A stretch of 64,000 bases of DNA from Fibrobacter sp. UWB11 (lineage in GTDB: Bacteria > Fibrobacterota > Fibrobacteria > Fibrobacterales > Fibrobacteraceae), in contig NZ_FSRT01000001.1 in assembly GCF_900143015.1 (NCBI RefSeq), positions 1,922,001 to 1,986,000 on the forward strand. The letters run 5' to 3'. The first letter of the stretch is position 1, and each line of letters opens with the position of its first letter. The position numbers and the translations under genes were made by a program. The notes under the pieces were generated by a model. The model did not search any database, had not been told where the DNA came from, and worked only from the letters and a program-made list of their open reading frames with translations. Below, in pieces: positions 33,003 to 59,322 of the stretch.

Positions 33003-33032
33003 GGAGATCCCCGCTCAGAGGCGGGGATGACA
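33003..33032 (+). repeat. GC-rich ATGACA-type inverted repeat
   Basis: GGAGATCCCCGC-TCAGAG-GCGGGGATGACA, an 8-bp stem ATCCCCGC/GCGGGGAT. The same frame as at 3044 and 62897. It is downstream of transketolase. Confidence 0.75.
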
Positions 33033-54068: not shown

Positions 54069-54101
54069 TGTCATGCCCGCCTCCGAGCGGGCATCTCCTT
54101 T
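54069..54101 (-). repeat. GC-rich ATGACA-type inverted repeat (inverted)
   Basis: Minus strand: AAGGAGATGCCCGC-TCGGAG-GCGGGCATGACA; 8-bp stem ATGCCCGC/GCGGGCAT. Followed by T-rich sequence on the plus strand, so it could double as the terminator of the DUF349 gene. Confidence 0.75.
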
Positions 54102-58425: not shown

Positions 58426-59322
58426 ATGCTTAAAGTTTATTTAATCCAAATGGATAGCGCAAAAGGCTCCAAGTCCGAAAATTTAGACCGAGCAAAGGCT
58501 ATGATTCTTGACACCCACCCCGCCGAAGGGAGCCTTATCCTATTGCCCGAAATGTTCGCCACGGGCTACATCCCCGCAAACCTAGCAGCCGCTGCCGAAG
58601 ACTTTAGCACCAATACCGCGGGCGAAACCGCACGTATGCTTTCCGAGATTGCCGACGCCACAAACTGCACCATCATGGGTGCAGGCATCACTCGCGCATC
58701 TAGCGGTTATTTCAACCATGTAAGCATTTACGCCCCGCACACGCCCAAAGAGTTCTGCGGATACAACAAGATGAACTTGTTCTTCCCTGAAAAAGAAAGC
58801 TTTAAAGCGGGCGAAAATATTAATTTATTTAAATTAAAGGAGATTCCCTCCCCATACGCGGATCATGCTCACATAAGTGCTAAAGCACTAAGTGATCAAA
58901 GAGATCAAGTCGGGAATGACAATAAGGCAGAATCTGTAAGCTGGACAATAGCTTCATTTATCTGCTACGACTTGCGGTTCCCCGAGATTTTCCGCGAAGT
59001 AACCAAAAAAGGCGCAAATTTAATCACGATCCAAGCAGCGTGGCCCGCCAAAAGACGCGCCCACTGGGAAACGCTCCTCAAGGCTCGTGCTATCGAAAAC
59101 CAGGTCTACATTGCAGCCGTAAATGCCGTAAGCACCGCACCCAATGCCCCAACCCCGCTTGCTGGTACATCCCTCATCATTTCACCAAACGGTGATATAA
59201 TTGCCGAAGGATCCACTCAAAGCGAAATGATTATTACTACCGAACTAGACTTGCAAGCCGAAAGAAATTACCGCAAATCATTCCCCGTACTCGACGGAAT
59301 AGTCCCTCCAGATTTGATTTAA
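58426..59322 (+). CDS. Nitrilase-superfamily amidase (omega-amidase-like)
   Basis: 298 residues. The catalytic triad is in place: Glu42 (LLPEMFATGY), Lys115 (YNKMNLFFPE) and Cys180 (SFICYDLRFPEIFREV). The family also shows KARAIENQVYIAAVNAV and SLIISPNGDIIAEG. The LPEMFATGY and CYDLRFPE patterns fit omega-amidases, which hydrolyse alpha-keto-glutaramate or -succinamate, but substrate is not proven. Residues 138-167 (KEIPSPYADHAHISAKALSD and ten more) are an insertion encoded by an ATGACA-type repeat at 58839-58921, placed before the catalytic Cys strand. It may be tolerated as a loop. Predicted leaderless. Confidence 0.85.
   Translation: MLKVYLIQMDSAKGSKSENLDRAKAMILDTHPAEGSLILLPEMFATGYIPANLAAAAEDFSTNTAGETARMLSEIADATNCTIMGAGITRASSGYFNHVSIYAPHTPKEFCGYNKMNLFFPEKESFKAGENINLFKLKEIPSPYADHAHISAKALSDQRDQVGNDNKAESVSWTIASFICYDLRFPEIFREVTKKGANLITIQAAWPAKRRAHWETLLKARAIENQVYIAAVNAVSTAPNAPTPLAGTSLIISPNGDIIAEGSTQSEMIITTELDLQAERNYRKSFPVLDGIVPPDLI
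58839..58921 (+). repeat. ATGACA-type repeat inserted in frame in the amidase gene
   Basis: Starts GGAGATTCCC and ends GGGAATGACA, the same ends as the intergenic copies, but the loop is 63 bp. That loop holds further mini-hairpins, such as AGTGC-TAA-AGCACT (near 58876) and GATC-AAAGA-GATC. It adds about 28-30 codons with no stop and keeps the frame. Confidence 0.75.

Follow-up and report, generated by a model that had tools for sequence, protein, structure and literature searches.

The best-known palindromic elements lying in frame within genes of bacteria are those of Rickettsia, which are obligate intracellular bacteria. The Rickettsia palindromic elements (RPEs) are dispersed palindromes found in frame in protein-coding genes, and the ERIC, RU and YPAL elements of enterobacteria are palindromes of about 100–170 bp that are mostly intergenic, with some copies in frame in genes (both reviewed in PMC2229807). 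Other dispersed hairpins include the REPINs and GTAG REPs, which are described together with RAYT transposases (PMC3116915, PMC3733652), and the CGTC-tagged REP superfamily, whose members carry a CGTC or TGTC tag, an 8–9-bp stem starting with A-T and a 4–5-nt loop, and include Neisseria dRS3 and Rickettsia RPE-6 (Di Nocera 2013, PMC3733652). CGTC-tagged REPs lie mostly downstream of genes and at times within genes, including uvrA, and have no dedicated transposase (PMC3733652). Here we describe a Fibrobacter element whose RPE-like mode, and the REP superfamily to which its first module belongs, are already known, and whose nested, site-exact, frame-preserving stepwise growth is new.

A composite palindrome in a nitrilase-family gene

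The element lies in a 64,000-nucleotide stretch of DNA (the window) from a 3.76-Mb Fibrobacter genome, referred to as G000; the other G numbers denote compared genomes. Its host gene (58426–59322, + strand) encodes a 298-residue protein of the nitrilase/carbon-nitrogen hydrolase family (Pfam CN_hydrolase, PF00795, E = 2e-34; the NCBIfam nitrilase match falls below its curated cut-off), in which the catalytic residues Glu42, Lys115 and Cys180 are invariant across 30 orthologues. Within this open reading frame, GGAGATTCCC at 58839–58848 and GGGAATGACA at 58912–58921 stand in frame at the two ends of an 83-bp palindromic element (58839–58921, + strand) that is supported by repeat matches in its own genome and by covariance-model matches. 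The element corresponds to residues 138–165, contributes the peptide (K)E-I-PSPYADHAHISAKALSDQRDQVGND and ends 14 codons ahead of Cys180. The initial annotation had described an in-frame repeat just before the catalytic cysteine that adds about 30 residues; the repeat is real, and the protein is indeed some 30 residues longer at this point than its insert-free orthologues in G019 (265 residues) and G004 (270 residues).

An AlphaFold model of the G000 protein shows a confident nitrilase fold (pLDDT 85.7, pTM 0.85), with residues 147–168, between strands 134–138 and 172–179, falling below a pLDDT of 50. The protein is predicted to tolerate the insert, which would form a disordered loop ahead of the strand leading to Cys180, and the insert is probably neutral for the enzyme. 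That the insert might instead be an old, functional, conserved loop of the enzyme agrees with the intact frame and catalytic residues, but this reading is almost certainly wrong, given the low modelled pLDDT and the presence of the same peptide in unrelated proteins (see below). An insert conserved in orthologues across the phylum had been named beforehand as the sign of such a loop; in the orthologue alignment most congeners lack the insert, which refutes it.

The element had been taken for one 83-bp repeat. It is a repeat, but not a single unit, as it consists of a 29-bp hairpin (module 1) and a 54-nt core (module 2), so that 58839–58921 reads as GGAGATTCCC, 54 nt and GATCAAGTCGGGAATGACA. 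The 5' part of module 1 (58839–58848, + strand) is GGAG followed by the first outer-stem strand ATTCCC (58843–58848). Its 3' part (58903–58921, + strand) holds the inner mini-stem GATCAAGTC, the second outer strand GGGAAT (58912–58917) and GACA, with a TGACA tag at 58917–58921. Together these two parts make up the 29-bp hairpin that is uninterrupted in the G001 and G014 orthologues. Module 2 (58849–58902, + strand; TCCCCATACGCGGATCATG...GTGATCAAAGA) spans 18 codons and is missing from those same orthologues with both flanks intact. In the aligned copies it sits at the same offset, interrupting the 5' strand of the hairpin stem directly behind base 10 of module 1. It comes in two lengths, type A measuring 54 nt and type B 53 nt.

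The consensus from 16 aligned copies contains the outer stem, two core stems and the inner mini-stem. Core stem P2 (58849–58862, + strand) pairs TCC (58849–58851) with GGA (58860–58862), as found in the RNAalifold consensus and by pair counts, and core stem P3 (58866–58898, + strand) pairs 58866–58872 with 58892–58898 and is kept through two-sided changes across copies. An apical hairpin of P3, pairing 58876–58881 with 58884–58889 (+ strand), was read from the sequences. Taken alone, one copy has only a slight folding advantage over shuffled sequences (z = −1.8). Across 96 distinct copies, standard pairs make up 96.3% of the pair cells, both sides have changed in 243 cells against 83 ± 6.5 in shuffles, and sliding the pairing partners abolishes the signal. 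The long element is thus a covarying three-way junction, though the covariation could partly reflect arm-to-arm template correction rather than selection. In alignment A2, the sequences GGA[T/C]CATG and CAAAG[A/T] display a perfect, non-Watson-Crick correlation between two sites, T occurring with A in 78 copies and C with T in 7, with zero C-A or T-T combinations; a tertiary contact may lie behind this correlation, or it may mark one subfamily.

On the opposite strand, module 1 reads TGTC-ATTCCCGA-CTTGA-TCGGGAAT-CTCC, with an unpaired TGTC at one end, where the superfamily has CGTC, TGTC or CCTC, an 8-bp ATTCCCGA/TCGGGAAT stem that begins with A-T, and a 5-nt loop, both within the family's range of 8–9 bp and 4–5 nt. 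The long copies are mostly intergenic and downstream of genes, and module 1 further resembles CGTC-tagged REPs in its occasional copies within genes (uvrA) and in having no dedicated transposase. The tail may be a difference: it reads C[TGA]CC in Fibrobacter, which is partly set by the choice of pattern, and in the family CCA fits only "most" tails (PMC3733652). Because tag, stem, loop and position fit, we place module 1 in this known superfamily. The 54/53-nt core at one point of the hairpin is a Fibrobacter feature that is not described for CGTC-tagged REPs in PMC3733652, a survey in which the word Fibrobacter occurs 0 times; our literature search likewise found no report for this genus, as the initial annotation had supposed. 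The TGTC-tagged hairpin pattern occurs at 156 places in the G000 genome (control, 0) and at one place in 24 genomes from outside the genus. Two uninterrupted short REP-type hairpins lie elsewhere in the window, at 54069–54098 (− strand) and 33003–33032 (+ strand), with the sequences GGAGATGCCC...GGGCATGACA and GGAGATCCCC...GGGGATGACA.

Copies, distribution and reading frame

The 83-bp element has 27 further DNA matches in its own genome (E = 1e-24 to 7e-4), which puts its repeat nature far beyond chance, and about 22–28 long copies are present there. Covariance-model matches were obtained in 30 of 37 sampled Fibrobacter genomes, with up to 35 per genome, and in 0 of the 24 genomes sampled from the phylum's other genera. 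The exact core pattern was found in 118 stretches in a collection of 84,980 species, and all but three of the matches listed are labelled Fibrobacter; by this criterion the core appears to be restricted to the genus. The three exceptions (Oscillospiraceae, Tannerellaceae and Prevotella) were dismissed as chance matches, as the rest of the core and the arms are missing. No exact core was seen in viral contigs. Copies were studied from the stretches around them, with a flank query that spanned 11 of 21 loci. Because the regular-expression counts misplaced the core end in some copies and undercounted REP arms, just the length and orientation tallies were used. One locus in G019 (L144:1353–1854, contig 40) holds three long elements in tandem with a 209-bp period. 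At another (L021:1203–1271, − strand), an Rfam match to the ftsZ-DE RNA (RF02985, 94 bits) lies about 160 nt from a core-like repeat.

Outside the nitrilase gene, the remaining full-length copies examined in the G000 genome are apparently intergenic or just overlap gene ends or short open reading frames, and of the 60 near genes downstream of long copies, 47 have their end toward the 3' (tag) side of the element (p = 1e-5). This placement, together with the covarying stems, is what one would expect if the elements were functional RNA parts of mRNAs, such as stabilisers or terminators, that occur in genes merely by accident. We regard this as unlikely, though worth considering, since G-U wobbles have no clear strand excess (23 versus 16) and so do not point to selection for the RNA of one strand, and no Rfam family was found at the element in 11 loci with E values up to 1.

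The mobile-element reading, which we prefer, draws on the copies within genes. A search for similar peptide inserts, as suggested in the initial annotation, located them in conserved proteins of the genus other than the nitrilase, and long copies occupy six in-frame sites in five genes. They comprise the G000 nitrilase, two distinct positions in TilS (one in G004 and L394, the other in G069), RsgA (G004 and G075), the UvrA-like protein of G071 and the HrpB-like helicase of G077; the NCBIfam identities of RsgA and TilS lie above the curated cut-off, and those of the UvrA-like and HrpB-like proteins, like that of the nitrilase, below it. All six sites carry the 54-nt, 18-codon type, read in one shared frame, giving the peptide P-S-P-Y-A-D-[HY]-[AD]-H-I-x-A-K-A-L-S-x-Q-R. 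The 53-nt type B was not seen in genes. Among the 20 copies of subfamily A1, 10 have the shared frame open, compared with 1 for all five other frames taken together. This pattern is best seen as that of a selfish element that survives in genes only if its length (54 and not 53 nt) and its single open frame fit. Fibrobacter tilS is a hotspot: in addition to the long element, several further in-frame repeats of the SAQDD, FDFAQDD and GGGNDK type occur in it at varying sites (L092, L172 and L394).

Empty, short and long alleles

At the nitrilase site, about 25 congeners, including G004 and G019, carry no insert. Four congeners have a 28–29-bp hairpin, one of them with a different extra sequence: G001 and G014 have the short hairpin GGAGATTCCCGATCAAGTCGGGAATGACA, G027 carries GGAGATTCCCGCCTGCGCGGGAATGACA, a short hairpin with another loop, and the hairpin of G006, similar in kind, holds a different short insert. 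The 54 nt occur only in G000, where both parts of the short hairpin are unchanged. At the rsgA site, G069 and G071 have the short form GGAGGTGCCCGCTCAAGGCGGGCATGACA, and G004 and G075 have this form plus exactly 54 nt following base 10; G014 carries another insert at that point, and G027 and G003 are empty. The uvrA-like site is empty in G069, G004, G027 and G003, short in G000 and G019 and long in G071, with another extra sequence in G006, and the tilS site is short in G014 and long in G069. Two intergenic loci with shared flanks behave alike, L002 being long in G000 and short in G014 and G075, and L007 long in G000, G069 and G077 and short in G075. The same forms recur in several genomes, and an assembly error was rejected on this ground. 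No within-species polymorphism of short and long forms was seen. These comparisons suggest that two-step growth has taken place in at least three conserved genes besides the nitrilase (rsgA, uvrA-like and tilS).

At these sites the short and long forms differ at the core junction by the core alone, with no target-site duplication at the core ends such as a MITE would have, and the junctions CCC|TCCCC...AAAGA|GATC show no microhomology. In tilS (G069) and the uvrA-like gene (G071) the inner mini-stem also differs from that of the short orthologue, so the exchanged unit sometimes exceeds the bare core. The Fibrobacter element shares with ERIC, RU and YPAL its palindromic structure, mostly intergenic location and some in-frame copies in genes; those elements, however, have target-site duplications, which we do not see at the core junction, and other sequences. 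Some copies of ERIC have further sequence inserted within them at set positions.

In a three-gene tree (12 genomes, 2940 columns), the nitrilase and uvrA-like genes each have their long allele at a single tip amid short ones, and gain is a simpler account of this than repeated exact loss. The single-gene trees are partly discordant with each other, and the direction, core gain, is thus a matter of parsimony and not of proof. The opposite direction, in which the long element is ancestral and the short hairpins are remnants of precise core loss, would account for short hairpins at orthologous sites and would sit well with the strong link between core subtype and arm type (below), as if long units had spread whole. 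It nonetheless seems improbable to us: short hairpins outnumber long ones in the G000 genome (about 156 versus 22–28), the long form of the nitrilase site is found in one genome and the hairpin alone in several, with the uvrA-like site likewise, and slippage at junctions without microhomology would not repeatedly yield exact loss.

We consider it likely, then, that the nitrilase insert is a nested, mobile palindromic element acquired in two steps. In the first, a 29-bp CGTC/TGTC-tagged REP-type hairpin would have entered the nitrilase gene in frame in an ancestor. In the second, the G000 lineage would have gained the Fibrobacter-specific 54-nt structured module at one exact point, immediately behind base 10 of the hairpin. 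The hairpin would have become a three-way junction, and the gene would have grown by 18 codons with its frame unbroken. The comparison with RPEs made in the initial annotation holds in kind, since a dispersed palindrome lies in frame in a conserved gene whose orthologues in some 25 congeners lack it, and the conclusion that the element works like an RPE is well supported: as with RPEs (PMC2229807), in-frame insertion is tolerated in many unrelated conserved proteins, and several of these conserved genes have orthologues without the element. The whole element falls outside the Rickettsia families by sequence and occurs in a different phylum, with a core found only in Fibrobacter among the matches listed from the 84,980-species collection. 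It also differs from RPEs in that it grows when a second module nests within it at one set position, and in that orthologous sites can be empty or carry a short or a long allele.

Candidate movers and nested modules

Like REPINs and GTAG REPs, the element is a non-autonomous hairpin of high copy number, but it lacks the GTAG tag (its ends are TGTC and GGNGA) and there is no RAYT (Y1_Tnp) in its own genome. Movement by a REP-associated Y1 tyrosine transposase, as supposed for GTAG REPs, would agree with the hairpin structure and with a core junction free of target duplication, both of which resemble the Y1 mode, and a Y1 gene is present in some congeners (G001 and G004). Against this, the Y1 transposase family (PF01797) has no match in G000 and is missing from the copy-rich genomes G014, G019 and G027, and the tag is TGTC rather than GTAG, making this explanation quite improbable. 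No mobile intermediate or dedicated transposase was seen.

The core subtype is linked to the type of arm that surrounds it. Subtype A1 occurs with C at base 10 (17:0) and A2 with G (31:2), with a p value of 2e-11 that is rough because the copies are related. Such a link fits movement of the core by arm homology, or spread together with the arms as a whole element, and the joint change of mini-stem and core in tilS and the uvrA-like gene leans toward gene conversion or template switching. We give about an even chance to a mover that copies between hairpins sharing arm sequence, by gene conversion or replication template switching, and a somewhat smaller one to a transposase acting in trans; some other mechanism seems unlikely.

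A few cores reside in hairpins that are not of the REP type (L109:1509–1582, L346, L148, L350 and L360), for example GGCTCT...AGAGCC beside CTACAGAC, and the target of the core may be hairpins more broadly than the REP type. In five of the G000 copies, the core has a third module nested in its apical loop. This module is about 80 nt long, contains GCATTCAAGGCGAGTGTCGC, GAGCCGAA and TGACGC/GCGTCA, and is found at L013:1012–1174, L015:973–1135, L017:1010–1171, L027:1067–1227 and L028:1020–1180; some of its sequence is similar to a distinct dispersed repeat, GGCTCGGTC...GACACTCGCCTT, present in the flanks. We tentatively propose that the 54/53-nt core could be a distinct mobile element that targets the stems of REP hairpins already in place and so parasitises a parasite. 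On this proposal, which we hold with less than even confidence, an enzyme reading the hairpin structure would move the core, the 54-nt form would be kept in genes as 18 open codons, and further modules would nest alike in its loop.

Gut bacteria of another phylum thus show all stages at the same sites, empty, short hairpin, and hairpin with core. The spread of CGTC-type REPs without a transposase becomes testable in this system, which points to a stepwise route by which selfish DNA may lengthen proteins by exact multiples of three.
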